Below, piece after piece: positions 44,128 through 59,886 of a stretch of 64,000 bases of DNA (positions are counted from its first letter, which is position 1; each line of letters starts with the position of its first letter). The notes beneath the pieces are model-generated. The model was not told where the DNA came from. It saw only the letters and a program-made list of their open reading frames with translations, and did no database searches. Source of the DNA: Sandaracinus amylolyticus (GTDB lineage: Bacteria > Myxococcota_A > Polyangia > Polyangiales > Sandaracinaceae); the NCBI RefSeq assembly GCF_000737325.1, contig NZ_CP011125.1, positions 372,001 to 436,000 on the forward strand, read 5' to 3'. The position numbers were made by a program, and so were the translations under genes.

Positions 44128-44162
44128 AGAGCGTCCGAATCGGCTCGCTCCCACGCTGGCGA

Positions 44163-44669: not shown

Positions 44670-46211
44670 ATGTCTCGGACAGCTCGCGGGTGGTGCGCGA
44701 TCGCGCTGGCGCTCGGGTCGGTGGGGTGCAGCGGGCAGCTGGGTGACGACGAGCGCCGGAGCGACGCGGGTCGCGATGCGTCGGCCTCGACGGTGAGCGA
44801 CGCCGCGCTCGACGCGAACGCGCCGGACTCGAGCCCGCCCGACGCCGGTCCGCCGCGCGGGATTCGCCACGAGCGATTCGACGACTACCACGCTCCGGCG
44901 CAGCTCGAGGTCGTCCCTGCGATCGACTTCGTGTGGGACGAGGGCCCGCTGGGCGAGGGCGCGCCGTCGGACTTCGTCTCCGCGCGGCTGACTGCGCTCC
45001 TCACGCCGCCCGCGACCGGCACGTACACGATCGCGACCGAGAACGACGACGGCGTGCGCGTCTGGATCGACGACGCGCTCGTGATCGACGACTGGCGCGG
45101 CCACTTCGTCGAGCGCCACGAGGCGACGGTGGAGCTGAGCGCGGGCACGCCGGTGATGCTGCGCGTCGACTACTTCGAGCTCGATCTCGCCGCGCAGCTC
45201 CGCGTGCTGTGGACGCCTCCCGGAGGCACCGAGTCGCCGATCGACGAGACGCACGCGCTCGCGGTGCCGCTCTCGGCGGAGCTCGCGCCGCCGGCGCCGC
45301 ACTTCGCGAATCCGGTGGTGCCCTTCGACTGCCCGGATCCCGGCGTCCTCGCCGACGAGGGCGCCTATTACATGGTCTGCACGGGAGGCCGATTTCCCAT
45401 CCGTCGCTCGCGCGATCTCGTGCGCTGGAGCGACACCGGTGCTGCGGTGCTCCCGAGCGGCGCACCGCCGTGGGCCGCGAACGGACACCGCAACTGGGCG
45501 CCCGAGCTCCATCGTGTCGGCGATCGCTACGTCGCGTACTTCACGTCGGTGAACGGCGCGAACGTGCTCTCGATCGGCGTGGCGTGGGCCGACGATCCGC
45601 TCGGTCCGTACACCGTGACCGGCGCGCCGCTGGTCGAGCACTCCGACGGAGTGATCGACGGCAACTACTTCCGCGACGACGACGGACGTCACTACCTCTT
45701 CTACAAGATCGATGGCAATGCGCACGGTCGCCCGACTCCGATCTTCGTGCGCGAATTGGCCGCCGACGGACTCTCGTTCGCACCCGGGAGCGTGGCAGTC
45801 GAGGTCCTGCGGAACGACCCACGAACGTGGGAAGGCGGCGTCGCCGAGGCGTCGTGGACGGTGCGTCGCGGCGATTTCTACTATCTGTTCTACAGCGGCA
45901 ACGTCTACGACGGTCGATATCGCACCGGCGTCGCGCGCTCGCGCAGCGTGACCGGTCCGTACGAGAAGCACGGCGCGCCGATCCTCACGAACGACGCGCG
46001 CTGGGTGGGCCCGGGGCACGGCACGGTGCTGCGCGTCGGCGACGAAGACTGGTTCTTCTACCACGCGTGGAACGCCACCGCAGGCGGCGGTCACGACGGA
46101 TCGCGCGGCAGGTTCGGTCTCCTCGACCCGATCACGTGGGAAGGAGACTGGCCGAGGATCGGCGATGGGACGCCCGGTGAGTCGCCGCGCGCGTGGCCGG
46201 GGCGCGAATAG
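44670..46211 (+). CDS. Lipoprotein with PA14 domain and GH43-like beta-propeller
   Basis: A 513-residue protein from ATG 44670. The lipobox is in LGSVGC. Residues about 65-205 form a PA14 domain (TGTYTIATENDDGVRVWIDD, LRVDYFELDLAAQLRVLW). The rest is a five-bladed-propeller glycosidase of the GH43 type: FDCPDPGVLADEGAYYMVC carries the catalytic Asp, HRNWAPELHRVGDRYVAYF, DGVIDGNYFRDDDGRHYLF and WEGGVAEASW the likely Glu. It probably cleaves arabinose- or xylose-containing glycans outside the cell. It lies between the radical SAM groups but seems unrelated. Confidence 0.9.
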   Translation: MSRTARGWCAIALALGSVGCSGQLGDDERRSDAGRDASASTVSDAALDANAPDSSPPDAGPPRGIRHERFDDYHAPAQLEVVPAIDFVWDEGPLGEGAPSDFVSARLTALLTPPATGTYTIATENDDGVRVWIDDALVIDDWRGHFVERHEATVELSAGTPVMLRVDYFELDLAAQLRVLWTPPGGTESPIDETHALAVPLSAELAPPAPHFANPVVPFDCPDPGVLADEGAYYMVCTGGRFPIRRSRDLVRWSDTGAAVLPSGAPPWAANGHRNWAPELHRVGDRYVAYFTSVNGANVLSIGVAWADDPLGPYTVTGAPLVEHSDGVIDGNYFRDDDGRHYLFYKIDGNAHGRPTPIFVRELAADGLSFAPGSVAVEVLRNDPRTWEGGVAEASWTVRRGDFYYLFYSGNVYDGRYRTGVARSRSVTGPYEKHGAPILTNDARWVGPGHGTVLRVGDEDWFFYHAWNATAGGGHDGSRGRFGLLDPITWEGDWPRIGDGTPGESPRAWPGRE

Positions 46212-46235
46212 AAGGCGACGCGACCGAGCTGCCGA

Positions 46236-47303
46236 TCAGGCGACCGGGACGAACTCGTCCCAGCCGTAGCGCTTCAGGTAATTGCCCCAGACGCCTTCAC
46301 ACGACTTCTCGTGCTTGCACTGCGCGCATTCGGCGCGCTTCTGGCGCTCGGAGTCGTCGAGATCGGCGCGGCGGATGGCGACGAGCTCGCGCGTCTCGCT
46401 CTGATCCGCGAGCGCTTCTCTGCGTCCCAGGAGCGCCTCCGCGGGCACCAGCTTCTCCGCGTTCGCCGCCGGCTCGTAGTGCACGTAGCTCTCGACGTAG
46501 CCGCGGTTGAAGTCCGGCAGCTTCGTCGTCGTGCAGAGCGGGATGTCGACGAGGAACGCCATCACCCGCGGCTCGGTCTTCGTCTGCTCTTCGAGGAAGA
46601 CGCGCGCGGTCTCCGCGATCTCGGTGTACGTCGGGAAAATGTGCTCGAAGTACGTGTTCGCGCGGCCGTTGGCCTGCATCACGTTGAACACGACCTGATC
46701 GACGCCGTGGGCGCGCAGGAATCGATAGATCTCTCCCATGTGCGGGAGATTGCGCTTCGTGATCACGGTGCTGGTGTGGAGCTCGACTCCATACCGCTTG
46801 TACTTCGTGATCACGTCGAGGCCCGCGACCGTCTGGTCGAAGCTCTCGGGCGTGCGCGTGAGGCCGTCGTGCAGCTTCTGCGTGTGGCCGTGGATGCTGA
46901 CGTAGAAGCGGTTCATCCCCGCCGAGATCAGCATGCGCGCGTACTTCTCGTACGAGAGCGAGCGCCCGTTGGTCATCACGCTGACGCGGCGGATCCCCGC
47001 TTCCTTCGCCCACCGCACCCAGTGCGGCAGTCGCGGGTTCGTCGTCGGCTCGCCCGACGTGAAGCAGATCTCCTCGGCGCCCTTCTTCTGCTCGAGGATG
47101 AACCGCACGAGCGCGTCGTCGGTCTGGCTGTTCGTGACGTAGCGAGCGTCACGATCCTCTTCCATGCAGAAGACGCAGTTGTTGTTGCACACCGCGCCGG
47201 TGAGCACGTGGACGCGCTCGTCCTTGTGCGCGATGCGCTCGTCGATCGAGGTGTGCTCGGCCTCCGCTCTGCTCGACGGAGAGCTGAGCACCGCCTTCGT
47301 CAT
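46236..47303 (-). CDS. Radical SAM protein of the His-Xaa-Ser-type cluster (HxsC-like position)
   Basis: A 355-residue protein. ATG 47303 overlaps the stop of the repeat peptide by one base (TGATG); GGGAG lies six bases upstream. Motifs are CNNNCVFC (4Fe-4S), ICFTSGEPTTNPRL, VMTNGRSLS and FYVSIHGHTQKLHDGLTR. The C-terminus has CAQCKHEKSCEG followed by YLKRYGWDEF. It holds the place of HxsC, the second radical SAM enzyme of His-Xaa-Ser systems. Its direct coupling to the precursor gene makes it the best candidate, along with HxsB, for modifying the repeat peptide. Whether it is orthologous to HxsC needs a profile search. Confidence 0.9.
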   Translation of the reverse strand: MTKAVLSSPSSRAEAEHTSIDERIAHKDERVHVLTGAVCNNNCVFCMEEDRDARYVTNSQTDDALVRFILEQKKGAEEICFTSGEPTTNPRLPHWVRWAKEAGIRRVSVMTNGRSLSYEKYARMLISAGMNRFYVSIHGHTQKLHDGLTRTPESFDQTVAGLDVITKYKRYGVELHTSTVITKRNLPHMGEIYRFLRAHGVDQVVFNVMQANGRANTYFEHIFPTYTEIAETARVFLEEQTKTEPRVMAFLVDIPLCTTTKLPDFNRGYVESYVHYEPAANAEKLVPAEALLGRREALADQSETRELVAIRRADLDDSERQKRAECAQCKHEKSCEGVWGNYLKRYGWDEFVPVA

Positions 47304-47563
47304 CACCAGCTCCCGTGCGAGCCGTGCGATCCGTGGGAGCCGTGAGAGCCGTGGGAGCCGTGAGAGCCGTGAGAGCCGTGGGAGCCGTGCGATCCGTGTG
47401 ATCCGTGCGAGCAGTGCTGCGCCAGCAGGATGTCGTCGCGCGTGTTGGGTTTGGCGAGGTCGGCCTCTTCCAACGCGCGATCCGCGATGGCGCGCTCGGT
47501 CGGGTCCATCAGACCACCCGCATTGCGCCGGAAGCTCGGAAGAACGTCGTCGTCGTCGGCCAT
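47303..47563 (-). CDS. hxsA: His-Gly-Ser repeat peptide, candidate modified precursor (HxsA-like)
   Basis: An 86-residue peptide from ATG 47563 with a perfect AGGAGG site six bases upstream. Residues 1-50 form an acidic, helix-prone leader (MADDDDVLPSFRRNAGGLMD, then ALEEADLAKPNTRDDILLAQ) with no signal peptide. Residue 51 is the only Cys. Eleven Ser-His-Gly units follow, then Ser-Trp. Read in phase, this is a run of His-Gly-Ser, the pattern that defines HxsA, the proposed substrate of HxsB and HxsC. It sits between hxsB and another radical SAM gene. I infer a ribosomally made, post-translationally modified peptide; a metal-binding His-rich peptide is the alternative. Confidence 0.8.
   Translation of the reverse strand: MADDDDVLPSFRRNAGGLMDPTERAIADRALEEADLAKPNTRDDILLAQHCSHGSHGSHGSHGSHGSHGSHGSHGSHGSHGSHGSW
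47312..47410 (-). repeat. Eleven 9-base units encoding Ser-His-Gly
   Basis: His is always CAC, while Ser uses TCG, TCA, TCC and TCT and Gly uses GGA, GGC and GGG. Such synonymous variation shows selection on the peptide rather than very recent DNA expansion. Confidence 0.95.
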
Positions 47564-47599
47564 GCCCCGCCTCCTACCGCTCCCAGGGAAAGCACCCGC

Positions 47600-49207
47600 T
47601 CACGGCGTCCGTGAAGCGTCCGCGCCGAGTGTACTACTAGACGTCCCCTGGATGAAATGGGCTCGCGGTCGGTTCGTCGTCCAGCGGCGGAAGACCTCCA
47701 TCGTGCCGGGGTCGGCATCGGCGATCTTCTCGAACAGATAGTCCTGGATTCCCTTGTGGACCGCGCAGACGCTGCTCTCGCGCATCCGCCCGAAGATCGT
47801 CCCCTGGGTCTTGTGGCTGTGGCTCGGGGCGACGCCGCAGTACGGCTGATACGCGCAGTTCACGCAATCGGGGCGCGCGTCGAGGTTCCCCGCGAGCACC
47901 ACCGCGCGCACCGTCTCGTGCCCGACGAGGCCGCGGTACGTCGCGTCGTTCACGTGGCCGAGCAGGAACGTGTCGTCGCCGGTCTCGTGGAGCATGCGAC
48001 CCTCGTCGCACGTGAAGATCGAGCCGTCGTAATTGTAGGCGAGCGCACCGATGCCCGCGCCCGACGGGCTGCGGATGTCGAGGAAGTTCGGGTCCTCGCC
48101 GCTCAGGATCTTCGTCAGGAAGATCGCCGCGTAGCGCTCGAGCACCTGAACGCCCTTCAGGTTCAGCTCGACCATGTAGTCGACGCACTTGCGGTAGTAG
48201 TCGAGGTACTCGGCGCGCGGGTACTCGAGGCGCGGGCCCGTCTTCTCGGCGAAGCCGAAGGGATCGAGCGGGCGCAGGAAGAGCGCGCGGCAGCCGAGGT
48301 CGACGTACTGATCGACCACTTCCTTCCAGAGCGGCAGCGTCTCGCGCGTCGTCGTGAGCAGCGCCTCGACGCGGTAGAGCGTCGTGTCGAGGCCGAGCTT
48401 CGCGTACTCCTCGTTGATGCGTCGGATCCACTTCACCGACGCTTCCCACGACGAGCCGCCGGTCTTGGTCCCGTCGGCGAGCTTGAGCGCAGGCAGCTTG
48501 CGCTGCTTGTCGTGCAGGCCCTGCGGGCCGTCGATGCTGGTGCAGATCTGGACGCGGTTCTCGAGCAGGAAGGCCAGCTTCTCCTCGTCCATCAGCGAGA
48601 GATTGCTGACCATCGTGAACTCGAGCGTCTTGGCCTCGCCACTCGCCGCGAGGCGCTCGTTCTTCTTCCGCGCGTACTCGATGACGTGCTTCACGACCGC
48701 GAAATTCACGAGCGGCTCGCCGCCCTGGAATTCGATCGTGATGCCGGGGCTCGTCGACGAGAGCGCGATGTCGACGCACTTCTCGGCGATCTCCGGCGTC
48801 ATGTCGGTGTGCACCGCGTCCATCGCGGCGCGCGACGCGTGGCAGTAGACGCACGTCTCGTTGCAGCGGAGCGTGACCACCAGCATGTGGAGGTTCGGCC
48901 CGTAGCCGACGAACGACTTGCGACGTCGCAGCGCGTCCGCAGCGCGCTTGGTGTCGTAGTGCGCGCGGAGGAAATTGCCTTCGCGCAGGCGCGCGTGGAG
49001 CTCGCTCTCGGGCGCGACGTTGCCTTCGACGAACGCGCGGAATTCGGCGTCCGCGAGCACGAGGAAATTGCCCTCGAGGTTCGTCAGCAGCACGCGCTGC
49101 TTCGGGAGCGCGCGATAGCGGAAGAACGCGGGGAACGTGGCCGAGGGGCGCAGGCCGCGCAGCGGGAACGCGCCGGGCGGGAGCTGCGAGTCGAGGGTAT
49201 CCGTCAC
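47600..49207 (-). CDS. hxsB: His-Xaa-Ser system radical SAM maturase HxsB
   Basis: A 535-residue enzyme; GTG 49207 overlaps the preceding stop (GTGA). An N-terminal domain of about 110 residues ends in VGYGPNLHMLVVTLRCNETC, where the 4Fe-4S motif CNETCVYC begins. IEFQGGEPLVNF follows. The C-terminal SPASM region carries the clusters FTCDEGRML, CVNCAYQPYCG and SVCAVHKGI, with HKTQGTIFGRMRES between. Length, motif order and the GRMRES segment agree with the HxsB family as I know it. It should modify the His-Xaa-Ser peptide encoded 36 bases downstream. The chemistry is not established for this family; three-residue cyclophane formation, as done by related SPASM enzymes on aromatic-x-x motifs, is a reasonable guess. 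Confidence 0.85.
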   Translation of the reverse strand: MTDTLDSQLPPGAFPLRGLRPSATFPAFFRYRALPKQRVLLTNLEGNFLVLADAEFRAFVEGNVAPESELHARLREGNFLRAHYDTKRAADALRRRKSFVGYGPNLHMLVVTLRCNETCVYCHASRAAMDAVHTDMTPEIAEKCVDIALSSTSPGITIEFQGGEPLVNFAVVKHVIEYARKKNERLAASGEAKTLEFTMVSNLSLMDEEKLAFLLENRVQICTSIDGPQGLHDKQRKLPALKLADGTKTGGSSWEASVKWIRRINEEYAKLGLDTTLYRVEALLTTTRETLPLWKEVVDQYVDLGCRALFLRPLDPFGFAEKTGPRLEYPRAEYLDYYRKCVDYMVELNLKGVQVLERYAAIFLTKILSGEDPNFLDIRSPSGAGIGALAYNYDGSIFTCDEGRMLHETGDDTFLLGHVNDATYRGLVGHETVRAVVLAGNLDARPDCVNCAYQPYCGVAPSHSHKTQGTIFGRMRESSVCAVHKGIQDYLFEKIADADPGTMEVFRRWTTNRPRAHFIQGTSSSTLGADASRTP

Positions 49208-49431
49208 TGCGCGGCTCCCGTCTTTCGAGCTTGGATGGTCAGACCGAGCGCGTAATTGCCGAGCTCGCGCGCGACGCGCTGGGCGCGACCGGGGCGCGCG
49301 CTCGCGATGCGCAGCACGACGTGATCGCCTTCGTCGCCGCGCGTGATCTCCGCGTGCGTGGCGTAGAGCCCGACCGCCTGATCGATCGCGCTCGCGAGAT
49401 AGAGCTCGCGATGGAGGCGCAGCTCGCTCAC
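49204..49431 (-). CDS. Small HxsD-like protein
   Basis: A 75-residue protein; GTG 49431 overlaps the previous stop and its own stop overlaps the hxsB start, both as GTGA. The sequence LYLASAIDQAVGLYATHAEI and the end ELGNYALGLTIQAR resemble a shortened HxsD, whose family is named after a LLNDYxLRE motif. It may be a second adaptor that presents the peptide leader to a radical SAM enzyme. I infer the relation from pattern only. Confidence 0.65.
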   Translation of the reverse strand: MSELRLHRELYLASAIDQAVGLYATHAEITRGDEGDHVVLRIASARPGRAQRVARELGNYALGLTIQARKTGAAQ

Positions 49432-49949
49432 GTCGCGCTCCCCTCGTCGCCGGGCTTCGCTGCAGCCTCCGGAGAACCGAGCGCGGGCGCGGCGGGCTCG
49501 TCCTTCTTCTTCTTGTACTTCTCCTCCCACGAGAGCCCGATGCCGAGCGGGTCCTCGAAGGGCTCCTCGGAGAAGTCGAAGTCCTTGAGATCGTCGAGCG
49601 TCGGCGGGCCCATCGCGCCGGTCACGGCCTGCAGCGTGACGGCCTCGATCACCGCGCGGTTGTCGCGCACGATCTGCGAGCGCCACGCGCAGCTGAGCAG
49701 CTCGTTCTGGAGCTCGCCGACCCAGCTGCGCAGCTCGCTCTCGCTCGCGGCCGCGTTCTTCGGCGTGAGCGTGATGCGCACCCGCGACGCGGTGCGATCG
49801 AGCAGCACGTAGCAGCGATCGAGGAACGTGTAGGCCGCGCCGTACACCGCGTCGAGCGGGTAGAGGGACTCGTCGATCGTCACCGTCACTGCGTGCGCCG
49901 ACACGTCGGCGTCGACCTGATCCGAAGGCATCCCTGCGAGCGCGCCCAT
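49428..49949 (-). CDS. hxsD: HxsD-like protein
   Basis: A 173-residue protein from ATG 49949 with GGAGG four bases upstream. The first 115 residues resemble HxsD: ESLYPLDAVYGAAYTFLDRC, a strand-rich middle (VRITLTPK), then ELQNELLSCAWRSQIVRDN where the family has LLNDYxLRE. A Lys/Pro-rich tail of 60 residues is added. HxsD occurs only with HxsB/HxsC and is thought to be an accessory, maybe a peptide-recognition protein. Confidence 0.7.
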   Translation of the reverse strand: MGALAGMPSDQVDADVSAHAVTVTIDESLYPLDAVYGAAYTFLDRCYVLLDRTASRVRITLTPKNAAASESELRSWVGELQNELLSCAWRSQIVRDNRAVIEAVTLQAVTGAMGPPTLDDLKDFDFSEEPFEDPLGIGLSWEEKYKKKKDEPAAPALGSPEAAAKPGDEGSAT

Positions 49950-49993
49950 GAAACCTCCGGCCGGAGACGTTACCCGAAAGCGAGATGCGCCGA

Positions 49994-50752
49994 CTACAGC
50001 GAGCCGCGCAGCAATGCGTCGAGGGTGGCGTCAGCGAAGGCGGGGGTCGGTGACTCGCGGGTCGCGAAGTAACCGCCGACGAACATCCGATGGCCCGCAC
50101 GGCGCAGCGAGTGTGCTGCGTGCCACGTGCACTGCTCTAGCAGTACGGCGGTGCCGGCAGTGGGCCGGAGCACCACCTGACCCGGCCAGTCCCGCGCGAG
50201 CGTGTCGTGCGACGGCGTGGTGGGGTCGCCGACGCGACGAGGGAGCACCAGCAGCGGCCCGCCGTCGTCGTCGAGATCGTCGAGGTAGACGACGACGATG
50301 ACGCGCTCGACCGTCGGCTTCGCAGGCCAGCGCTTCGCACGCATGCGCGTCCACTCCTCTTCGCCGTCGATGTGCGTGTGCCAACCGAAGAAGGGCCGCA
50401 TCCGATCGCTCACCGCCGCGCCGAGCGCCTCGAGACGCAGGTCGTCCCCGAGCAGCGCGCGCAGCGGCGAGAGCAGGCGATCACGGAGCAGCAGGGGCGC
50501 GATCTCGGGCGCGACGTGCTGGAGCCCGGTGATCGTGAGCCCTGTCGGTGTGAGCACGAACGACGCGGCGATCTCGGGCCGCGCGACGGTGACCGACGAC
50601 GGCGCGTAGAGCTGCTCGGGCGCCACCGCGTGGACGAGCCGTTCGAGCGAGCTCCGCGCGCACGCGATCTCGGCGGCCGAGAGCAACCCCGGGATCAGCG
50701 CATACCCTCGCTCACGAATGGCCTCGGCGACCTGCGTCGACGCGACGCTCAT
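49994..50752 (-). CDS. PhyH-like 2-oxoglutarate/Fe(II) dioxygenase
   Basis: A 252-residue protein. ATG 50752 overlaps the radical SAM stop (ATGA). Iron ligands are H and D in GWHTHIDGEE and H in CTWHAAHSLR; an Arg for 2-oxoglutarate follows in GHRMFVGGYF. It belongs to the phytanoyl-CoA dioxygenase superfamily, which hydroxylates or halogenates small molecules and natural products. It is related to the two at 54744 and 55510. The substrate may be the peptide or a separate small molecule of this cluster. Confidence 0.87.
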   Translation of the reverse strand: MSVASTQVAEAIRERGYALIPGLLSAAEIACARSSLERLVHAVAPEQLYAPSSVTVARPEIAASFVLTPTGLTITGLQHVAPEIAPLLLRDRLLSPLRALLGDDLRLEALGAAVSDRMRPFFGWHTHIDGEEEWTRMRAKRWPAKPTVERVIVVVYLDDLDDDGGPLLVLPRRVGDPTTPSHDTLARDWPGQVVLRPTAGTAVLLEQCTWHAAHSLRRAGHRMFVGGYFATRESPTPAFADATLDALLRGSL

Positions 50753-52092
50753 CCCTCACGCCTGCTGCCTCGTCCTCGCACCGAGCCGGGGCCGACCATG
50801 CCTTTGCGAAGGTCGAGCATCATGTTCCCCGGATCGCGCGCGACGATCGCCCGCGCCGCGGCGTGCACGATCTTCGTGAGGGTCGCGTGATCGTCACCGC
50901 GTGCGTTGCGGTAGTGCAGGTTGAACGACTTGCTGCGCGCGAGCGCGGGAGCATCACCGTCGCGCGCGGTGAGCACGATGTCGACCGACGATGCACCGTG
51001 CGCGAACCGGTACACGCAAGCGCGCCGCTGGACGACGATCTCCGTGAGCGCCGCGCCGGTCTCGCCGTCGACGCCCGCGACGAGCGCAGCCCATCGCGGC
51101 TGGTCGATCGCCGGCGCGTGACCGCCGGCGGACTGCTCGGAGCCGACCCACGGGCCGTACTCGGGCTCTTCCCACGGTGTCGTGCGCGGGTGAGGCGTGA
51201 GCGCATCGCGCTCCCAGCCGTGCTTCGTGATGTACGCGTGGTGCAGGCCGAGGCACGACTCGCCGTGCTCGCACTTCGCCTCGTAGAGGCACGCGAATTT
51301 CGGATACTTGTCGTAGAACTCCTCGACGATCACGACGTCGGCCTGCGTGTTGTCCTGCGTGCGCTCGTGCTCGCCGAGGAGGCATCGCGGGACGTACTTC
51401 ACGGCTGCGTCGATGCCGTGTCTGCGGCAGCTCGCGAGCGCGTCGCGCAGCCGCGGCGCGAGCGTGGACATCGGCGCGATCAGATCACGCTCGTCCGCGT
51501 AGTCCTCCATCGGCAGGTAGTTCCACCACTCCATGCGCGCCGGGCGGAAAGGGCGAACGGTCTCGACGATGTCGGCGAGGTGCGCCTGGTTGAGCGTGGT
51601 GAGCACCGTGTTCGTGATCAGCGTCGCGCCGAGCTCGACCACGTTCGAGATCCCGCGCATCGCCTCGTCGAAGCTACCCGGGCGCTGCGAGATGAAGTCC
51701 TGCGTCGCGGCGTCGTGGCCGTGCAGCGAGACGAAGAGCTCGTCGACGCCCGCGCCGATCAGGGCCTTCGCATAGCTCCGGTCGGCGAGGCGGCGCCCGT
51801 TCGTCTGCACGCGGATGTGCTCGAAGCTCTGCGACGCAGACGCGACGGTGACGTAATCGAAGAGCTTGCGCTCGAGCGTCACCTCTCCGCCGGTGAACGT
51901 GATGCGCCGGTATCGCCGGGTACGCCGGTTGTCCTCCACGGCGCGTTCGTACACGTCGAAAGGGACTCCTTTGTAGAAGTTCATCCCTTCCTGGACGATG
52001 CAGAACCGACAGGCGCTCTGACAGTGGAAGTCGACCGTGACCGTCAGATCCTCGAAGCGCGTCGGATCGAACCGTCCCTTGTAGCTCTGCAT
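50749..52092 (-). CDS. Radical SAM protein with added C-terminal domain
   Basis: A 447-residue protein. ATG 52092 overlaps the previous stop (TGATG). Motifs: CQSACRFC, ITFTGGEVTLE, VQTNGRRLA and ELFVSLHGHDAATQDF. After the core comes CLYEAKCEHGESCLGLHHAY and KHGWE, much like the end of the 46236 protein. An extra 120 residues follow (about 325-447), with LARSKSFNLHYRNARGDD; this part seems to be shared with the B12-type radical SAM proteins of the cluster. The function is probably peptide or small-molecule modification; the substrate is unknown. Confidence 0.89.
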   Translation of the reverse strand: MQSYKGRFDPTRFEDLTVTVDFHCQSACRFCIVQEGMNFYKGVPFDVYERAVEDNRRTRRYRRITFTGGEVTLERKLFDYVTVASASQSFEHIRVQTNGRRLADRSYAKALIGAGVDELFVSLHGHDAATQDFISQRPGSFDEAMRGISNVVELGATLITNTVLTTLNQAHLADIVETVRPFRPARMEWWNYLPMEDYADERDLIAPMSTLAPRLRDALASCRRHGIDAAVKYVPRCLLGEHERTQDNTQADVVIVEEFYDKYPKFACLYEAKCEHGESCLGLHHAYITKHGWERDALTPHPRTTPWEEPEYGPWVGSEQSAGGHAPAIDQPRWAALVAGVDGETGAALTEIVVQRRACVYRFAHGASSVDIVLTARDGDAPALARSKSFNLHYRNARGDDHATLTKIVHAAARAIVARDPGNMMLDLRKGMVGPGSVRGRGSRREG

Positions 52093-52985
52093 CAGAGCGT
52101 CCCGTAGTAGCTCGACTTCGGATATTCGAGCGTGCCGTCGGGCGCTCGTCGATAGTCGATACCGACGTCGAAATAGAGGTGCTCGAGCCGCTCGCGCTGC
52201 TGCCGCACGAAACCACGGATCGCTGCAGGGTACGCGAACCTGTCGAGGAACCAGATCAGCTGCTCGACGGTGATCCCGCTGTAGTAGATCGCGTCACAGC
52301 GACGCTTCTTTGCGATGCATACCTTCTTGCAGGCGAAGAGCTCGGGGAGGAGGACGCGCGAGAGCACGCGCGGGTCGGAGTAATCGACGAAGAGGCTGCT
52401 CGTGAGCAGCGAGAGCACGTCATCGACTTCACGCTTCGGTTCCATGAAGCGGTAGGTGTTCTCGAGCTCGGCTGTGCCGTCGCGCAGCTTGTACGAGCGG
52501 CCCGCGTGGGCCCTTTCGCCGGTGAGATACAGGTTCAGCTCGCGCACTTCTCCGTCGGCGATCGTCTGCGGAGAGACGTCGAAGCTGACCATCATGTACG
52601 GCACGGTCTCGCGGACCTGCGGGACGATGCGCATCCACGGCGAGAGCGCCGCGGCGATGCTCGTGATGGTCGCCTCGGGCGACTCCTTCTGCGGATCGTA
52701 GAAGTAGAGCTCCCACCAGAGCTGCGTGCCGTCCCACTTCACGCCCCAGACGGTGAGGTCCTGGCCGACGTGGCGCTGGACCGCCTCGAGCGGCGCGCGC
52801 AGGGCCGCCGTGGCGCCGCCGACCGCGAGAGAGTGCCAGAGCAGGTTCTCACCGCGGATCTTGCCGGGCCACGGACGACGCGGGCGGTAGGGCTCGAGGC
52901 AGTAGTCGAAATGACGATCGTGCTCGGTCGCGGGCACGAGCTCGAACGAACGGAGCAGCGTGTGAGGCTCGACGAGGTTGGGCAC
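52092..52985 (-). CDS. Unrecognised protein in the radical SAM/PhyH operon
   Basis: A 297-residue protein using GTG 52985; no Shine-Dalgarno site is seen, and 85 bases separate it from the upstream gene. Aromatic-rich strands dominate the first half (VWGVKWDGTQLWWELYFYDP, YMMVSFDVSP, LNLYLTGERAHAGRSYKL). The second half is helical, with two cysteines close together in ELFACKKVCIAKKRRC, and ends DVGIDYRRAPDGTLEYPKSS. I do not recognise the family. A strand-rich fold of the prenyltransferase (ABBA) kind is one untested idea. Its tight position before a radical SAM gene suggests a partner or substrate-handling role. Confidence 0.8.
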   Translation of the reverse strand: MPNLVEPHTLLRSFELVPATEHDRHFDYCLEPYRPRRPWPGKIRGENLLWHSLAVGGATAALRAPLEAVQRHVGQDLTVWGVKWDGTQLWWELYFYDPQKESPEATITSIAAALSPWMRIVPQVRETVPYMMVSFDVSPQTIADGEVRELNLYLTGERAHAGRSYKLRDGTAELENTYRFMEPKREVDDVLSLLTSSLFVDYSDPRVLSRVLLPELFACKKVCIAKKRRCDAIYYSGITVEQLIWFLDRFAYPAAIRGFVRQQRERLEHLYFDVGIDYRRAPDGTLEYPKSSYYGTL

Positions 52986-53070
52986 GTCAGTTCGGGAGAC
53001 CGCGTCGAGGCTATCACGAGCCGCTCCACGACGTCGCGCGCAGCGCGATGCGCGTCGGCGCGCGTTCGGA

Positions 53071-54747
53071 TCATAGCGCGCGGCGCAGGTCGTCGAGCGT
53101 CGTGGTCCCGAGCCGCACGGCGATCTCGTCGATCGCGCGGAGCAGGTGTGGCGGCGCTTCGCGTCCGCGGTACGAGATCGCGACGTGCTGCGACGCGCGA
53201 TAGTACGGCGAGCCGTCACGAGGTCCGAGGACGATGCGTTGCCGCGGGAGCCGTGCTGCGGCGTCGTCCAGCTCGAGGACGAGCGTGCCACGCTCCTCGC
53301 GCACGGTCTCGAGGCGCATCCCCTGCGTGGTCGCGCCGGGTGGCGCGAGCCCGAGCAGCGCTGCGAGCGCCGTGCTCGCTCTGCGCGGCGCGTGAGGGAT
53401 CTCGACGGGTCGCGCGCGCGTCGGCGCGTCCGCCTCGCGCGACGCTGCGCGCACGAGATCCGACTGGAGCTCGGCGAGCTCTCGAAAGGTGTCGTTCCGC
53501 TCGCGCTCGTTCATCGCCGAGGGAACACGCGGCGCGGGAAGGTCCCAGTCGTCGAAGCGCTCTCGCGCCGGGTCGGGCCAGCGGTCCGTCGAAGCCTCGC
53601 CGAGCACGGTGCCGGGCAGCGCGTGGTAGGTCGACCACATGAACGAGCCGGGGCGCAGCTTGCGCAGCAGCGCGACCGTGGAGTGGGCTTGCGCGCGCGT
53701 CTCGCCCGGGAGCACCGTCATCAGCGACGCGCTGGTGCCGAGGCCGACCGCGCGCGCGTCGTCGAACACGCGCTGGAGCACGACGTCACGGGTCCGCCGA
53801 TGCAGCACCTCGCGGCGGAGCTCCTCGTCGCCGGCCTCGACGCCGCAGTGGAAGAGCACGCATCCGGCTTCCTTCAGCAGCTCGAGCCGCCTGCGGCTGG
53901 CCGCGCTCGGGTGCATCTCGACCTTGAAGGGCAGCGCGACGCGCCGCGGGTACTCCTTCGCGAGCGCGTCGAGCCACTCGAGATCGATCGGGAAGTGCTC
54001 GTCCCAGAATTCGAAGCCGTCGGGGGCGTAGCGGTCGCGCAGTCGCGAGAGCTCGTCGCAGAGCTGCGCGACCGGGATCACGTTTCGCCGTGTCTCGAAC
54101 GCGTGGAGCTTCCCCCAGCGCGGCGCCGAGCAGTACGAGCACGTGAACGGACACCCACGGCTCGCGCGCGTCGGCAGAAAGCGATCGACGTGGGGACCGA
54201 ACGTGTTGATCCCGCGCGCGAGGCTCGCCCGCAGATCGCCGAACACGTCGTAGTCCCACGGGAGCAGCGCCGCGATGTCGGGCTCGGGATCCGCGCTCGG
54301 CGGCGGGCCCGTGAAGCCGTCGGGCCCTCGCACCCACAAGCCGGGGATCGAGCGCGTGGGTCTGCCCGACGGGAGCTGATCGAGCAGCGCGCGCAGCGGG
54401 CGCTCGCCTTCGCCGATCGCGATCGCGTCGACGGACGCGCAGCGCGCGACGTCGTGGGGCGCCATGCTCGCGTGGTATCCGCCGACCACCACGTACGCTG
54501 CGATCCGCGGTACCACGCGGGAGAGCAGGGTCTGTGCGCCGGGCCAGTCGCGGCTCATCGCGGAGACGGCGAGCACGTCGGGCGAGAGCGACTCGATGCG
54601 CGCCGCGACCTCGTCGATCTTGCTCCGCAGCGAGACCTCGAGCGCGCTCGCCTCGTGACCGGATGCGCGCACGACGGCCGCGAGGGCGGCGACCGAAGGG
54701 CTGAAGGGTCGCGGCGGATCGGTGAAGAAGAGGAAGAGGACCCTCAT
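53071..54747 (-). CDS. B12-binding-type radical SAM protein
   Basis: A 558-residue protein. ATG 54747 overlaps the previous stop (ATGA) with GGAG upstream. Residues 1-150 look like a cobalamin-binding Rossmann domain (VLFLFFTDPPRPFSPSVAAL, VVVGGYHASMAP). The radical SAM core starts at RGCPFTCSYCSAPRWG, with DGFEFWDEHFPIDLEWL after it and HCGVEAGDEELRRE. Class B enzymes of this kind are usually methyltransferases or catalyse other rearrangements. About 100 C-terminal residues (VREERGTLVLELDD, YYRASQHVAISYRGREAP) form a domain also found in its neighbours. Confidence 0.9.
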   Translation of the reverse strand: MRVLFLFFTDPPRPFSPSVAALAAVVRASGHEASALEVSLRSKIDEVAARIESLSPDVLAVSAMSRDWPGAQTLLSRVVPRIAAYVVVGGYHASMAPHDVARCASVDAIAIGEGERPLRALLDQLPSGRPTRSIPGLWVRGPDGFTGPPPSADPEPDIAALLPWDYDVFGDLRASLARGINTFGPHVDRFLPTRASRGCPFTCSYCSAPRWGKLHAFETRRNVIPVAQLCDELSRLRDRYAPDGFEFWDEHFPIDLEWLDALAKEYPRRVALPFKVEMHPSAASRRRLELLKEAGCVLFHCGVEAGDEELRREVLHRRTRDVVLQRVFDDARAVGLGTSASLMTVLPGETRAQAHSTVALLRKLRPGSFMWSTYHALPGTVLGEASTDRWPDPARERFDDWDLPAPRVPSAMNERERNDTFRELAELQSDLVRAASREADAPTRARPVEIPHAPRRASTALAALLGLAPPGATTQGMRLETVREERGTLVLELDDAAARLPRQRIVLGPRDGSPYYRASQHVAISYRGREAPPHLLRAIDEIAVRLGTTTLDDLRRAL

Positions 54748-55517
54748 CGGCGCTCCGGCACGCCGGCGCTGTACGCGCGGGCAAGCTCGGCGGACCCAGC
54801 GAGGGCGGCGGGGATCGTCGGGTCGCGACGGCGGGACGCGGGCGCATCGGCGCGCGTGACGAAGAACGCGATGAAGGCGCGCAGTCCTTCGCGCTTCATC
54901 GGAGTGACGGCGTGCCACGTCGGCTGATCGAAGAAGACGATGCTGCCTGCAGGCGCGCGCAGCTCGACGCAGCCGGGCCAGGGCTCGCTGCCCGGCGGGC
55001 GCGGTGGCGCGGTGGGCTCTCCCACGCGGCGAGGCCACACGAGCATCGTCCCGTGCGCATCGTCGAGCGGGCAGAGATACGTCGTGCACACGATCCGCTC
55101 GATCCTGTCGATCGGTGGGTACGTGCCGCGCACGTCCTCGCCGTCGATGCCGCCGACGTGGTGGTGCCAGAAGAAGAACGGTCGCGTGTGATCGGAGACG
55201 ATCCCGGCTGCGAGCTCGAGGCGCGCGCGCGGCCCGAGCAGCGTCTCGACGACGCCGCGGACCTCCGGCAGCAGCGCGATGTGCGCGGCCTCGGGGATGG
55301 GCTCGAGGATCCCGTACATCGCCATTCCCACCGGGCTCACGTGGACGCGCTCGCCGATGCTCACGTCGCGCTGCGAGAAGAGCTTGGGCGCACCGTGCGC
55401 GCGCCATTGCTCACGCATCTTGTCAGCCAACGTCTCGACGAGATGCTCGGGGACGGCCCCTTCGATCACGGCATGCCCTTGGGTCGCGATGCGGTGCGCG
55501 ACGTCGTGCTCACGCAT
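54744..55517 (-). CDS. PhyH-like dioxygenase
   Basis: A 257-residue protein. ATG 55517 with GGAGG eight bases upstream is preferred over GTG 55544. The iron site is seen as FFFWHHHVGGIDGED (H...D) and WHAVTPM (second His). It is a paralogue of the proteins at 55510 and 49994; all share the WHxHxxGID-like signature. It overlaps both neighbours (8 bases with the upstream gene, 4 with the downstream). Confidence 0.87.
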   Translation of the reverse strand: MREHDVAHRIATQGHAVIEGAVPEHLVETLADKMREQWRAHGAPKLFSQRDVSIGERVHVSPVGMAMYGILEPIPEAAHIALLPEVRGVVETLLGPRARLELAAGIVSDHTRPFFFWHHHVGGIDGEDVRGTYPPIDRIERIVCTTYLCPLDDAHGTMLVWPRRVGEPTAPPRPPGSEPWPGCVELRAPAGSIVFFDQPTWHAVTPMKREGLRAFIAFFVTRADAPASRRRDPTIPAALAGSAELARAYSAGVPERR

Positions 55518-56298
55518 CGCGATCGCCTCCGCGCGGAAGCACACTGGCCAGGACTTCGTCCGCGTCGTGGAGACGACGGAGCGACGTGTCCGTCGTGTGC
55601 GCGCGCGGCGCGTCCGCCGCCGCGAACCACAGCCCGACGAACATGCGAGGTGTCGCGCGAGGCGCGCAGGGGAGCACGGCGTGCCAGCAGCACTGATCCA
55701 TCAGCACGACGGTGCCCGCGGGAGCGTCGACCGCGAGCTGTCCCTCCCATGCGCGCGCCGCGCGATCGTGCGGCGGTCCCGACGCCCCGCTCACGCGGCG
55801 CGGATGGATCAGGAGCTGCCCGTTCTCGACGCACATCTCGTCGAGGTACACGAGCATCGCGACGCGCTCGGGACGCTCGATCGCGGGGCGGAGACCGAGC
55901 CGCCTGAAGCGCTCGTCGTCGATGCCGCCGACGTGGTTGTGCCACTCGAAGAAGGGCCGCGTGTGATCGCAGAGCAGTGCCGCGACGAGCTCGAGGCGCA
56001 TGTCGTCGCCGAGCGCGCCCCGGAGCACCGCGACCGCTCGCGGGTCGAGCAGGCCGCGTCGGAGCGCGGGTGCGTGGCCGAGCAGCTGGTGCAGGACGAG
56101 CCCGGTCCCCGAGATCTCGACGGTCGAGCGCGGCCACTGCGGCACGCGCGAGTAGAGCGCAGGCGCGCCGAGCTCCGCGTGCACGGCCGCGATGGTCTGC
56201 CGCAAGCGCGCGACCGTGGCCGGCGGGTAGAGCGCGGGAAGGATCGCGACGCCGTCGCGGACGAGCTGCGCGGAGAGCGGCTCGAGATCGCCGTTCAT
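55510..56298 (-). CDS. PhyH-like dioxygenase
   Basis: A 262-residue protein from ATG 56298, overlapping the radical SAM stop by four bases. The iron site is FFEWHNHVGGIDDERF and CCWHAVLPCA, with Arg in PRMFVGLWFA. It is close to the neighbouring copy at 54744, so tandem duplication is likely. In two adjacent copies the enzymes may act on successive positions of one substrate. Confidence 0.87.
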   Translation of the reverse strand: MNGDLEPLSAQLVRDGVAILPALYPPATVARLRQTIAAVHAELGAPALYSRVPQWPRSTVEISGTGLVLHQLLGHAPALRRGLLDPRAVAVLRGALGDDMRLELVAALLCDHTRPFFEWHNHVGGIDDERFRRLGLRPAIERPERVAMLVYLDEMCVENGQLLIHPRRVSGASGPPHDRAARAWEGQLAVDAPAGTVVLMDQCCWHAVLPCAPRATPRMFVGLWFAAADAPRAHTTDTSLRRLHDADEVLASVLPRGGDRDA

Positions 56299-57989
56299 TC
56301 GAGGGCGTCCCGCGCCACGAGAGGCGCGACGTCGGCGTGCACGCCATCGATCACCGACAACAGCTCGCGAGCGAGCGTGCGATCGACCGCGCCGCGATGC
56401 GAGTACGCGATGCGATCGCGCGCCGCGAAGTAGCGCCGGCCTTCGACCAAGGGCTCGGCGTGTAACGTGATCGCACCGGCGGGCGTGGTGAGCTCGAGCG
56501 CCAGCCCGCCGCGCTCTTCCATCACACCGACGAGGTTCCATCCCGACGCGGCGGCGCCGATCCGCGCGCCGAGCGCGCGTCGCGTGCCGACGTCGATCAC
56601 CGGCGCGCGCGAGATCGTGACCTCGGGCGTGCGCTCGGCCGGGATCCCGCGCAGCGTCCGCGACCCATCGACGACGAAGCCGACCCAGTCGTCGTTCAAG
56701 ATCGGCCGCGCGAACTGCGATGCACGCGCGACGACGCGCTCCCACTCGCGCTGCATCTGCTCGGCGTCCCAGCCTTCACACGACGTGATCCGGAACGAGC
56801 GCGGGTCGAATTGGATCTGCAGCGTGTCGGCGCGCTCGAGCAACGCGTCCGGGAGCGCGAAGCACCGGAAGATCTTCACGGTGTCGCCGAGCTCGATCGA
56901 GCGCTCCAGGGTTCGCCAGAACGACTCCGGGCCATCGCCCGGCAGCCCGAAGATCAGCTCGATGTCGACGTCGAGACGGCCGCGCATGCGCTTCAGCACG
57001 CGCTCGAAGCGATCGACGTCGAAGGGCCGCTGCATCCGCGCGAGCACCTCCTCGTCGAAGCTCTGGATTCCCACGCTCGCCTGCACCTGCGCGAACGTGT
57101 CGAAGAGCTCGAGGTGATGCTCCTCCAGGTGGGTCGGGTAGATGTGCCCGTGCACGATCTTGTCGCGCAGCGCGCGGACCTGTCGCTCGGCCGCCGCGAG
57201 ATTTCGGAATGCGCGCGGGCTGAGGTTGAACGCGGCGTCGACGAAGAAGACGTTCGGCACGTCGGCGGCGCGCAGCCCTTCGAGGTGTCGCGCGAGGTAG
57301 TCGCTCGAGTGGACGCGATCGGCCTTCTGCTCTCCCCACTGGCAGAACGCGCAATGGATCGGACATCCGCGGAACGTCTCGATGTAGCCCGTCTTCCCGA
57401 GCGGTGCCTGACCGAGCTGGTAGGGGGACGCGTAGGCGTCGATCTCGGGGCGCTCCACGTTGCGAGTGCGACGCCAGAGGCCGCGCGCCGGGATCTCGAG
57501 GCCTCCGACGCGCTCTCGCCAGTCGGGCTCGCGATGCGCACGCACGAGGTCGCGGATCGTCTGCTCGCCTTCGCCCGGGACGATCGCGTCGAGGCGATCG
57601 CGGAGCGGCTGATACACACCGAGATCGAGCACCGAGCGGCGCGCGGCGGGCCCTCCCGCGACGATCACGACACGGGGATCGTGACGGCGCAGCCGCTCGA
57701 CGAGACCGGTGAACACGTCGAGCGACCAGATGTAAGTCGAGAGTCCGACCAGCGTCGGACGGAACTCGCGCAGCGCTTCGAAGAAGGCGTCGGGATCGTC
57801 CGTGCACAGGTCGAGCAGCAACACCTCGACGTCGTGGAGCTCGGGGTCCGAGCGCAGCGAAGCGCGGAGCTTCTCGATGGCATACGAGAACGAATAGAAC
57901 GTCCCGTTCGGGTCGCGCCACGGCGAGTCCACCGCGACGAGCGCGACCCTCCGCTCGGAAGAAGCCGGCGCGTTCAGCGAGGTCCGCAC
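56295..57989 (-). CDS. B12-binding-type radical SAM protein, first gene of the operon
   Basis: A 564-residue protein from GTG 57989. The N-terminal 150 residues look like a cobalamin-binding domain (VALVAVDSPWRDPNGTFYSF, VVIVAGGPAARRSV). The core begins at RGCPIHCAFCQWGEQKADR with FFVDAAFNLSPRA and IFGLPGDGPESF. The C-terminus (VMEERGGLALELTTPAG, YFAARDRIAYSHRG) is shared with the 53071 protein. The promoter at 57997 would make the message leaderless. It may methylate a carbon centre. The substrate is unknown. Confidence 0.9.
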   Translation of the reverse strand: MRTSLNAPASSERRVALVAVDSPWRDPNGTFYSFSYAIEKLRASLRSDPELHDVEVLLLDLCTDDPDAFFEALREFRPTLVGLSTYIWSLDVFTGLVERLRRHDPRVVIVAGGPAARRSVLDLGVYQPLRDRLDAIVPGEGEQTIRDLVRAHREPDWRERVGGLEIPARGLWRRTRNVERPEIDAYASPYQLGQAPLGKTGYIETFRGCPIHCAFCQWGEQKADRVHSSDYLARHLEGLRAADVPNVFFVDAAFNLSPRAFRNLAAAERQVRALRDKIVHGHIYPTHLEEHHLELFDTFAQVQASVGIQSFDEEVLARMQRPFDVDRFERVLKRMRGRLDVDIELIFGLPGDGPESFWRTLERSIELGDTVKIFRCFALPDALLERADTLQIQFDPRSFRITSCEGWDAEQMQREWERVVARASQFARPILNDDWVGFVVDGSRTLRGIPAERTPEVTISRAPVIDVGTRRALGARIGAAASGWNLVGVMEERGGLALELTTPAGAITLHAEPLVEGRRYFAARDRIAYSHRGAVDRTLARELLSVIDGVHADVAPLVARDALE

Positions 57990-57996
57990 GACGAGA

Positions 57997-58026
57997 ACCG
58001 TAGGATTTTCATGTCGTGAGGGTCAA
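57997..58026 (-). promoter_or_regulatory. Promoter of the radical SAM/PhyH/Hxs operon
   Basis: On the minus strand TTGACC (58026-58021) and TACGGT (58002-57997) are 18 bases apart; the -10 ends seven bases before GTG 57989. This matches the layout of the promoter before 41577 (TTGACG-18-TACCTT-7-ATG). Confidence 0.6.
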
Positions 58027-58045
58027 GAGAGACCCGCTCCTCCGA

Positions 58046-59833
58046 TCACCGCGCGCGGCGCTCTTCCACGGTCAGCACGATCTGATCGAAGAGGTCGTTC
58101 TCGATGTGCTCGTCACGCCACGGCACGAGACGATCGGCACGCGCGTCCCAGCGCGCGACGAGCGACGCGCACCCCGTGACCGATGGATCGATCGTGACGG
58201 ACGTTCGATCCGCGCCGACGGTCGCGGACGGCGGCGCCTCGACGATGCGCATCGTGCGGCGCACCGGCAGTCCGACGTACAGCAGCGGCCGCAGCGTGCG
58301 CGAACCGTGGCGTGGATCCGGGCAGACCTCGATGTGCGCCTCGAGCAAGACGCCCCTCGAGGGCGTGCGCGGGAACTCGATCGGGCTCCGGTCGAGGGGC
58401 ATCTCGAGGTCCCGCGGCGACGTGATCACGCGGCAGCGCTCGGTCTCGGCGTTCACGTCGCACAAGCGGACTCCGCGGGTTCGAACCCACGTCTCGTGCT
58501 CGCACGCGCCGAGGGCGCCCGACGCGCTCCAGTGGATGTCGTCGCAGAGCGCGGTGGCCGCGTCGTCGCGCGTGACGACGGTGAGCCCGGTGCGCTCGTC
58601 GACGAGGGCGTCGTCTCGATCCCAGAGCCCGAGCGACCACACGAGCAGGTGGCTCGGCGCGGTGATCGCGGCGCCGTAGCCGGCGCGTGTGTGGGCTGCG
58701 AGATCGCGGAGGTCGCGATAGGCGAACACGCCTTCGTGGAAGCGATCGGCGGCGACGGCGTAGAACCCCGACGACCCTGCGACGAGCACGATGACGATGG
58801 CGCCGAGCAGAGCGCCCTCACGGCGAGGCCGGCGTGACACGCGCGACATCTCGTCGACGCACCCGCCGATCAGCGGCGCGAGCAACGCGAAGTAGAACGG
58901 AAAGATTGGATGGCGAGTGACGATCGCTGCGAGGATCGTGGCGGCGCTCATCCCTGCGGCGCTGCATGCGAAGGGGCGCGCGTCGGCCCACGCGAGCACG
59001 TGCCGTCGCGCGAGTCCCATCGCGACCACCGCGACCGCAGCGATCGCGATGGCGTCGAGCCCGACCTGGTGCGCGTTGTACGCGGCAGCGTGCGGCGTCG
59101 CGATCAGCTGCTCGGCCACGAAGCCCGCGGCCACGAAGAGGACGTCGCGCGCTCGATGCCGCAGGAGGAACGGCAGCCACACCACGAACGCGAACAGTGC
59201 GGCGATGTACACGCCGAGGGCGACGCCGTACGCCGCGCCGGCGAGCGCGAGCACGAGCGGCGAGCGACGCTCGGTGCTCCCGCACACGAGCCATACGAAC
59301 GGCGTCAGCGCCACGGGCGCGAGCGTCGGATGGAACGCGATGAACCCCGGCGCTGCGGCGTACGACACGACGAACGTCGCGAGCCCCGCGAGCGCGCCTG
59401 CAGCGCGATCGTGCGCACACGCCGTGACGAGTGCGGCGCCGGCGGCCTGCACGACCACGAACGCCGCGCGCATCCACTCCGGAGAGCTCGACACGCGCCA
59501 CAGCGCTGCGAGCGCCCAATCCCAGAGCACCCCGCCCTCGTACGACCCGTGCGACGCGAGCACGCCGCGCGTGGGGCACTCGCCGCGCTCGGCGCATGCC
59601 TGACCGAGCGCGAAGTCCACGGTCGAGTCCGCGGTCATCCAGAGCGTCGGCCCGACCGCGAGCGCGACGAGCGCACAGCCGATGGCGAGCAGCGCCGCGT
59701 CGCGCAGCGCGTGCGGTCTTCGCGGAGACGTCCGCCATACGACCACCGCGGCGAGTGCCCACGCGACGACGGCAGCCGCGAGGTGCGCCATCGCCTGGCC
59801 GAACGCGATCGTGCCGAAGTCTCCGTATCGCAC
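58046..59833 (-). CDS. Multi-pass membrane protein, GT-C-like
   Basis: About 595 residues if GTG 59833 is used. GTG 59884 and ATG 59791 are alternatives; the first would collide with the divergent epimerase promoter. About nine to ten hydrophobic segments occupy residues 15-380, and a soluble domain of 200 residues with several cysteines follows. A segment near the N-terminus (ADSTVDFALGQACAERGECP) sits in the first large loop, as in GT-C glycosyltransferases. No clear DxD or ExD motif could be fixed. It may transfer sugars from a lipid carrier, in line with the epimerase and GT2 genes beside it. Confidence 0.78.
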   Translation of the reverse strand: MRYGDFGTIAFGQAMAHLAAAVVAWALAAVVVWRTSPRRPHALRDAALLAIGCALVALAVGPTLWMTADSTVDFALGQACAERGECPTRGVLASHGSYEGGVLWDWALAALWRVSSSPEWMRAAFVVVQAAGAALVTACAHDRAAGALAGLATFVVSYAAAPGFIAFHPTLAPVALTPFVWLVCGSTERRSPLVLALAGAAYGVALGVYIAALFAFVVWLPFLLRHRARDVLFVAAGFVAEQLIATPHAAAYNAHQVGLDAIAIAAVAVVAMGLARRHVLAWADARPFACSAAGMSAATILAAIVTRHPIFPFYFALLAPLIGGCVDEMSRVSRRPRREGALLGAIVIVLVAGSSGFYAVAADRFHEGVFAYRDLRDLAAHTRAGYGAAITAPSHLLVWSLGLWDRDDALVDERTGLTVVTRDDAATALCDDIHWSASGALGACEHETWVRTRGVRLCDVNAETERCRVITSPRDLEMPLDRSPIEFPRTPSRGVLLEAHIEVCPDPRHGSRTLRPLLYVGLPVRRTMRIVEAPPSATVGADRTSVTIDPSVTGCASLVARWDARADRLVPWRDEHIENDLFDQIVLTVEERRAR

Positions 59834-59886
59834 GGTCCGTGGCGTCCGTGTCCCTGCGCGAGAGGCTACACTCGCGAGCGACACGA

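Follow-up and report, generated by a model that had tools for sequence, protein, structure and literature searches.

A run of twelve genes in Sandaracinus amylolyticus (genome of 10,327,335 bases in one contig) raises the question of whether a set of B12-type radical S-adenosylmethionine (SAM) proteins and PhyH-type oxygenases forms one pathway with the Hxs peptide-maturation genes that directly follow it. The window analyzed is the whole stretch of 64,000 nucleotides from contig NZ_CP011125.1 (positions 372,001 to 436,000); its twelve genes are termed g1 to g12, numbered 5' to 3' on the minus strand, and positions above 64000 continue the numbering of the window. A preliminary description had treated the run as one joint system. 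From the comparison of sequences presented here, it is best read as a composite, strain-specific operon. We give about an even chance to the fuller explanation, in which an Hxs4 set was joined by a swapped-in tailoring module that would most likely decorate a peptide of the surrounding radical SAM island, with HxsA4 as the candidate at this locus.

Comparison with a Same-Genus Relative

DNA homology to a genome of the same genus (G539) covers positions 46228-49998 at 94.4%, with none directly upstream. The end of homology at 49998 coincides with the stop codon of g7 (49994-49996), and the junction segment 49950-49998 on the minus strand would be hxsD leader retained from the ancestral locus. 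The hxsD, HxsD-like, HxsB and HxsC4 genes of G539 follow the same order with 91-99% amino acid identity, and its hxs locus carries no g1-g7. Homology resumes at 64715-65602, which matches 42300-43193 of G539, and the stretch of about 14.7 kb here corresponds to one radical SAM gene (rSAM383, 43300-44496) in the relative. Between the breakpoints S. amylolyticus carries g7 to g1 and genes for a 612-aa protein, an epimerase, a glycosyltransferase and an aminotransferase-methyltransferase, along with a fam325 gene. Three further genomes also have hxs genes without g1-g7: in G099 the order is radical SAM-methyltransferase (rSAM-MT), HxsD, HxsD-like, HxsB and HxsC4, in G149 the g1-g5-g6 genes sit on another contig, and the HxsC4 locus of G168 likewise lacks the module. 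The twelve-gene fusion was not seen in any other of the 30 loci with g5. Judging from these other genomes, the cassette appears to have been gained here rather than lost elsewhere. A single ancestral system was rejected on the breakpoint at 49998, and the joint system as originally framed is not supported, the closest relative having hxs genes without g1-g7. Genes in other genomes were called by a simple codon-usage script, and their ends are approximate.

Gene Order and Transcription

As had been described, all genes from 57989 to 46236 lie on one strand; twelve minus-strand genes were found, each with the expected codon-position GC bias. The statement that most starts overlap the previous stop by 1-8 bases was also borne out, with overlaps at eight of the 11 junctions (4 bases at g1/g2, 8 at g2/g3, 4 at g3/g4, 1 at g5/g6, and 4 each at g6/g7, g8/g9, g9/g10 and g11/g12) and gaps of 85, 44 and 36 bases at g4/g5, g7/g8 and g10/g11, respectively. 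The single promoter proposed at 57997 gained no support. A sigma-70 promoter scan of 46000-60200 returned no matches, although such a scan says little in a genome of 70% G+C. The directon extends 5' of g1: only 56 bases separate g1 from the end of another gene on that strand (58046-59884), and transcription may therefore begin farther upstream. At the g7/hxsD junction (49950-49994), where an internal promoter and terminator would have spoken against one transcript, neither a terminator nor a sigma-70 promoter was detected, a weak test. With hxsD lying 44 bases behind g7, the hxs genes are likely transcribed from upstream; they probably depend on upstream transcription because no more than about 49 bases are left of the sequence ahead of hxsD that is common with G539. 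We infer that g1-g12 are co-transcribed.

The Hxs4 Set

The five genes g8-g12 all scored above their NCBIfam cut-offs and are, on these assignments, a complete Hxs4 peptide-maturation set, named for the HxsA4/HxsC4 variant. These are HxsD (g8, 173 aa, 49428-49949; TIGR03976, 52.2 bits, cut-off 50), an HxsD-like protein (g9, 75 aa, 49204-49431; NF038315, 65 bits, cut-off 41), the radical SAM maturase HxsB (g10, 535 aa, 47600-49207; TIGR03978, 533 bits, cut-off 370), HxsA4 (g11, 86 aa, 47303-47563; NF038313, 102.5 bits, cut-off 55) and the radical SAM protein HxsC4 (g12, 356 aa, 46236-47306; NF038332, 631 bits, cut-off 500). HxsA4 consists of a leader, 11 consecutive HGS repeats and a terminal Trp. 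With respect to the classical models, g11 reached 26.1 bits with the HxsA model TIGR03979 (cut-off 121.65) and g12 reached 88.7 bits with the HxsC model TIGR03977 (cut-off 267.9), both below cut-off. HxsB and HxsC4 would act on HxsA4, with the His-Xaa-Ser repeats as the modified part. The number of repeats in HxsA4 varies within the genus, 11 here and 13 in G539, and the leaders are identical.

All 29 distinct HGS-repeat peptides or open reading frames (ORFs) collected from the genomes end in Trp; the count omits one low-complexity ORF listed by the pattern search (L100), which has no HGS run. An HGS-repeat peptide was missing within the fetched 1.5 kb flanks of 16 of the 41 HxsC4 loci (L005, L007, L009-L012, L014-L018, L133, L134, L140, L143 and L147), and HxsC4 may therefore act on a distant or different substrate. 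When an HGS-like peptide was sought by composition beside HxsC4 where none lay within 1.5 kb, none was found in the 11 loci examined.

The Predicted Prenyltransferase and Its Radical SAM Partner

The protein encoded by g5 (297 aa, 52092-52985) was previously listed as unknown. That holds for curated families, as no Pfam or NCBIfam match was obtained at an E value of 0.1; its fold is now predicted to be that of a prenyltransferase (PT)-barrel (ABBA or dimethylallyltryptophan synthase, DMATS) enzyme. The AlphaFold2 model, built from an alignment of ten sequences, had a mean predicted local distance difference test (pLDDT) score of 87.2. All 14 Foldseek matches with E values below 0.001 were prenyltransferases, with AmbP1 (E 8.7e-06) and AmbP3 on top. 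In a second structural comparison (VIA) the 50 matches listed were again all prenyltransferases (Z 10.0-13.8), the best being auraA with Z 13.8 and a root-mean-square deviation (rmsd) of 4.0 over 244 aligned residues. At the sequence level, the g5 profile gave weak matches (E 0.17-0.39) to LynF/DciF-type chains. Matches of the profile to HIV gp41 (E 0.0017 and up) were rejected as chance, since they involve a short stretch (52-86) and the fold gives them no support. By its modeled fold, g5 is very probably a PT-barrel prenyltransferase, and would transfer a prenyl group.

Directly downstream, g6 (447 aa, 50749-52092) encodes an HxsC-like radical SAM protein (PF04055, 69.4 bits; NF038332, 97.1 bits, cut-off 500). 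A g6-like radical SAM gene adjoins g5 in all 30 g5 loci of the class, and this invariant pair is the core of the upstream module. Around it in relatives the genes are variable: g1, PhyH, WelO5-family or Rieske genes. G539 has a g5/g6 copy of its own (L153 5893-12205), 50% identical, with three WelO5-family genes and fam325, in which g5 lies about 38 kb from HxsC4; the pair is accompanied there by another set of tailoring genes. No short conserved peptide was found in the recurring gene clusters around g5 loci that could serve as a precursor private to g1-g7, short ORFs being easily missed in high-G+C DNA.

B12-Radical SAM Proteins and PhyH-Type Oxygenases

The remaining genes of the module largely agree with the content first described, which held two B12-type radical SAM proteins, three PhyH dioxygenases and a radical SAM protein (g6) ahead of the Hxs genes. 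Both g1 (564 aa, 56295-57989) and g4 (558 aa, 53071-54747) combine a B12-binding and a radical SAM domain with a CxxxCxxC motif, all domain scores being over cut-off (g1: PF02310 46.3 and PF04055 56.9 bits, CPIHCAFC; g4: PF02310 53.2 and PF04055 53.6 bits, CPFTCSYC). Among the named B12-radical SAM methyltransferase families of NCBIfam (e.g., KedN5-type), g1 reached at best 83.7 of 700 bits (NF033712) and g4 86 of 251 bits (TIGR04013). C-methylation is the probable reaction of both. In their C-terminal parts the two proteins are related to each other (hhalign probability 90), and weaker hints (probability 33-38 for three other pairs) connect the C-termini of g1, g4, g6 and fam325, which may represent a shared substrate-binding domain.

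The PhyH assignment stood for two of the three proteins. PF05721 was matched by g2 (262 aa, 55510-56298; 27.2 bits, cut-off 22), a PhyH-type Fe/2-oxoglutarate oxygenase, and by g7 (252 aa, 49994-50752; 31.8 bits, cut-off 22); g3 (257 aa, 54744-55517) fell below all Pfam cut-offs but can be aligned with both and is 32% identical to g2, with the same WHxH and WHA motifs. The AlphaFold2 model of g2 (pLDDT 88.2) was closest to FtmOx1 (Z 20.7, rmsd 3.1, 234 aligned). In all nine PhyH-type proteins aligned, the place of the iron motif (HxD) reads WHxH, followed two residues on by D or G, and the distal WHA and Arg218 are invariant. When two ordinary PhyH proteins from this genome were aligned to them by MAFFT and hhalign, the alignments did not fix the metal-ligand register of WHxH. 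These motifs may point to a changed iron triad or, for the proteins with G, to a site resembling that of halogenases. The three proteins would act as oxidizing enzymes.

Association of the Module with Hxs4 across Genomes

To place the module among relatives, g5 was counted at E≤1e-20 and HxsC4 at E≤1e-120 in 317 genomes of the class, where they occurred in 30 and 73 genomes, respectively. HxsC4 was present in 27 of the 30 g5 genomes compared with 73 of 317 overall (Fisher 1.9e-16 by genome). By genus, the figures were 21 of 22 g5 genera versus 45 of 151 (Fisher 2.6e-12), the genera not being independent; the overlap lists for both tests were compiled by hand. The g5 genomes of the class without HxsC4 were G206, G470 (84% complete) and G371 (65% complete). 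HxsA4 scored over cut-off in 25 of the 30 g5 genomes. In a sample of 192 genomes from the class, some of them g5 genomes, it did so in 52.

With respect to physical linkage, a genome of another family (G381) has a second, independent locus of about 12.5 kb in which rSAM-MT, HxsD, HxsD-like and an HGS-repeat peptide are followed by g5-g6-g5-g6-g1. The HxsD, HxsD-like and HGS peptide genes lie about 1-2 kb ahead of that series, and HxsD, the peptide and the prenyltransferase, radical SAM and B12-radical SAM genes together take up about 10.5 kb. Where g5 and HxsC4 share a contig at short range, the gaps are 4.8 kb (G000), 11.6 kb (G490), 21 kb (G085) and 38 kb (G539). That the two halves never co-occur in relatives was rejected on the 27 of 30 genomes and the G381 locus: the two are found together in genomes and, now and then, within a locus, though this fusion was not seen elsewhere. 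The data support a functional tie between the upstream module and Hxs4 genomes and islands.

Several observations weigh against the explanation favored here. Genera are not independent in the Fisher tests, which carry no control for genome size. Genes of the hxs set were found in the g5 flanks (up to about 10 kb, several ending at contig ends) in just three of the 30 loci (G000, G381 and G244, the last with a g5 31% identical), and other same-contig gaps between g5 and HxsC4 are large (595 kb in G115, 609 kb in G446 and 2.7 Mb in G509). In the phylum sample, g5-like genes also turned up in 12 genomes from outside the class, whose best HxsC4-model matches are far below cut-off or absent. Other island genes, among them the one for the double radical SAM protein, are likewise found with g5, and the apparent tie to HxsC4 may therefore be one to HxsC-like radical SAM islands at large. 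The terminal Trp of HGS-repeat peptides is equally present in genomes without g5, and its conservation does not by itself support a modification there. Finally, many small indole alkaloid enzymes are among the folds nearest to g5 and g2, which fits a non-peptide product.

Alternative Explanations

In the composite explanation, which we favor at even chances, the 3' half would be an Hxs4 set (an HxsA4 precursor ending in (HGS)11-Trp, HxsB, HxsC4 and two HxsD-type small proteins) and the 5' half a tailoring module in which the g5/g6 core is accompanied by the two B12-radical SAM proteins and the three PhyH-type oxygenases. The module would have arrived within the 14.7 kb stretch in place of the single radical SAM gene, thereby bringing hxsD to its position behind g7. 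It would be drawn from the gene pool of HxsC-like radical SAM islands in the class, where it occurs almost only in HxsC4 genomes, and its substrate would be a peptide of these islands, HxsA4 being the sole candidate seen here. That the module acts on the His-Gly-Ser peptide is plausible. A more specific version is rather unlikely in our judgment: a new ribosomal peptide pathway in which HxsB and HxsC4 modify the HxsA4 repeats, and a swappable cassette of a g5 prenyltransferase and an HxsC-like radical SAM protein, with B12-radical SAM, PhyH or WelO5-type members, prenylates, methylates and oxidizes or halogenates the same peptide, perhaps at the terminal Trp or at His.

A real but lesser possibility is that two unrelated pathways have become neighbors in a radical-SAM-rich hot spot where both are common, g1-g7 and the sugar and aminotransferase genes (58-64.7 kb) making a small prenylated, methylated and oxidized aromatic compound, for example one derived from Trp, and the Hxs genes maturing their own peptide. 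The resemblance of g5 to the indole prenyltransferases AmbP1, CymD and FgaPT2 and of g2 to FtmOx1, EasH and OkaE would fit such a product, as would the WelO5-family genes of related g5/g6 loci; among characterized enzymes, those closest to g5 and g2 mostly have indoles or indole alkaloids as substrates. The strain-specific replacement and the 27 of 30 g5 loci without an hxs gene in the flanks examined (several contigs ending short of 10 kb) point the same way. Against two independent neighbors stand the presence of HxsC4 in 27 of 30 g5 genomes and a second close linkage with a different gene order in G381; g6 is itself HxsC-like, and the seemingly related C-termini of g1, g4, g6 and fam325 suggest one shared kind of substrate. 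Improbable, by comparison, is the proposal that the twelve genes are only a slice of a single, very large biosynthetic cluster made up of the whole radical SAM island (from 42 kb in the window to about 88 kb). Such a cluster would account for the concentration of seven of the eight HxsC-like matches of the genome within C1 414-450 kb, for the island gene sets that recur around HxsC4 in G168, G182 and G539, and for the double radical SAM gene beside g1-g5-g6 in G149, but the islands are split and reshuffled between genomes and HxsC4 occurs without g5 in 46 of 73 genomes. Least probable is that the twelve genes formed one system from the start, devoted to the His-Gly-Ser peptide. The continuous strand, the overlaps and the G381 linkage would suit it; the breakpoint at the g7 stop codon, the G539 hxs genes without adjacent g1-g7, the HxsC4 loci of G149, G099 and G168, and the presence of HxsB within 10 kb of HxsC4 in just four of 17 genomes all oppose it.

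The Surrounding Radical SAM Island

Outside the operon, two further HxsC-like radical SAM proteins are encoded on the plus strand at 42146-43192 (TIGR03977, 90.5 bits) and 43192-44127 (89 bits), both under the cut-off of 267.9. The HxsC-like island comprises window positions 42146-44127 and continues beyond the window in L083 2587-15706 and L084. Encoded there are a 1070-aa radical SAM protein, a fusion of a radical SAM protein with a methyltransferase, and two proteins in which the radical SAM domain is doubled; a DUF483 gene lies in between (L083:1067-2602). Within the replaced stretch, the 612-aa protein (58046-59884, minus strand) gave no Pfam or NCBIfam match and, from long hydrophobic stretches noted by eye, may be a membrane protein. 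It is followed at higher coordinates by an NAD-dependent epimerase/dehydratase (59908-60876, plus strand; PF01370, 195.6 bits), a family 2 glycosyltransferase (60881-61708, minus strand; PF00535, 84.5 bits) and a DegT-type aminotransferase fused to a methyltransferase domain (61713-63593, minus strand; PF01041, 315.4 bits, and PF13649, 73.3 bits). The fam325 gene lies at the window's edge on the minus strand, its 3' part at 63607-64000 and its open frame (63607-64797) continuing past the window end; the gene-calling script set a plus-strand gene (64067-65602) over this frame. Genes of fam325 neighbor g5 in several relatives (X539, L169, L033 and L038).

Relation to Known Systems and Significance

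The preliminary description knew of no described system with this gene set, and a search of the open-access literature likewise found no description of the combination. The locus shares HxsA4, HxsB, HxsC4, HxsD and the HxsD-like protein, all over cut-off, with the HxsA4/HxsC4 variant of the Hxs system, and differs in that the classical HxsA and HxsC cut-offs are unreached and a tailoring module is fused upstream. The hapalindole, ambiguine and welwitindolinone pathways supply the top Foldseek matches of g5 (AmbP1 and AmbP3), and relatives of g5/g6 carry WelO5-family (PF22814) proteins, but no WelO5-family match was found in the module of this window; we know of no counterpart of g6, g1, g4 or the Hxs proteins in those pathways. 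Enzymes of the fumitremorgin, ergot and okaramine pathways (DMATS with FtmOx1, EasH and OkaE) are among the closest folds of g5 and g2, at 8-18% identity in structural alignments only; the setting here differs in being bacterial, with B12-radical SAM and Hxs genes. The predicted fold of g5 is also that of the ABBA-fold prenyltransferases of ribosomally synthesized and post-translationally modified peptides (PagF, LimF, KgpF and DciF, and MppC of a lanthipeptide), with g5 at Z 10-11 to PagF, LimF, KgpF and DciF. The present case differs from these in that g5 always stands beside an HxsC-like radical SAM gene and no precursor of those classes was seen here.

Maturation by HxsB and HxsC is called putative in one paper (PMC9062424). 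More broadly, in the open-access papers found, the Hxs system appears so far as a bioinformatic prediction, named as putative or in listings. If the cassette does act on HxsA4, a radical SAM repeat peptide would in addition undergo prenylation, C-methylation and Fe/2-oxoglutarate-dependent oxidation; no description of that combination was found in the literature searched. The locus is a case of tailoring modules being swapped in and out of radical SAM islands, here with a sharp breakpoint at a stop codon, and it brings to light a recurring prenyltransferase/radical SAM pair whose prenyltransferase is unnamed in the family databases searched. It also provides a compact gene set in an organism whose genome is sequenced, and within one genus the hxs locus occurs naturally both with the cassette and without it.

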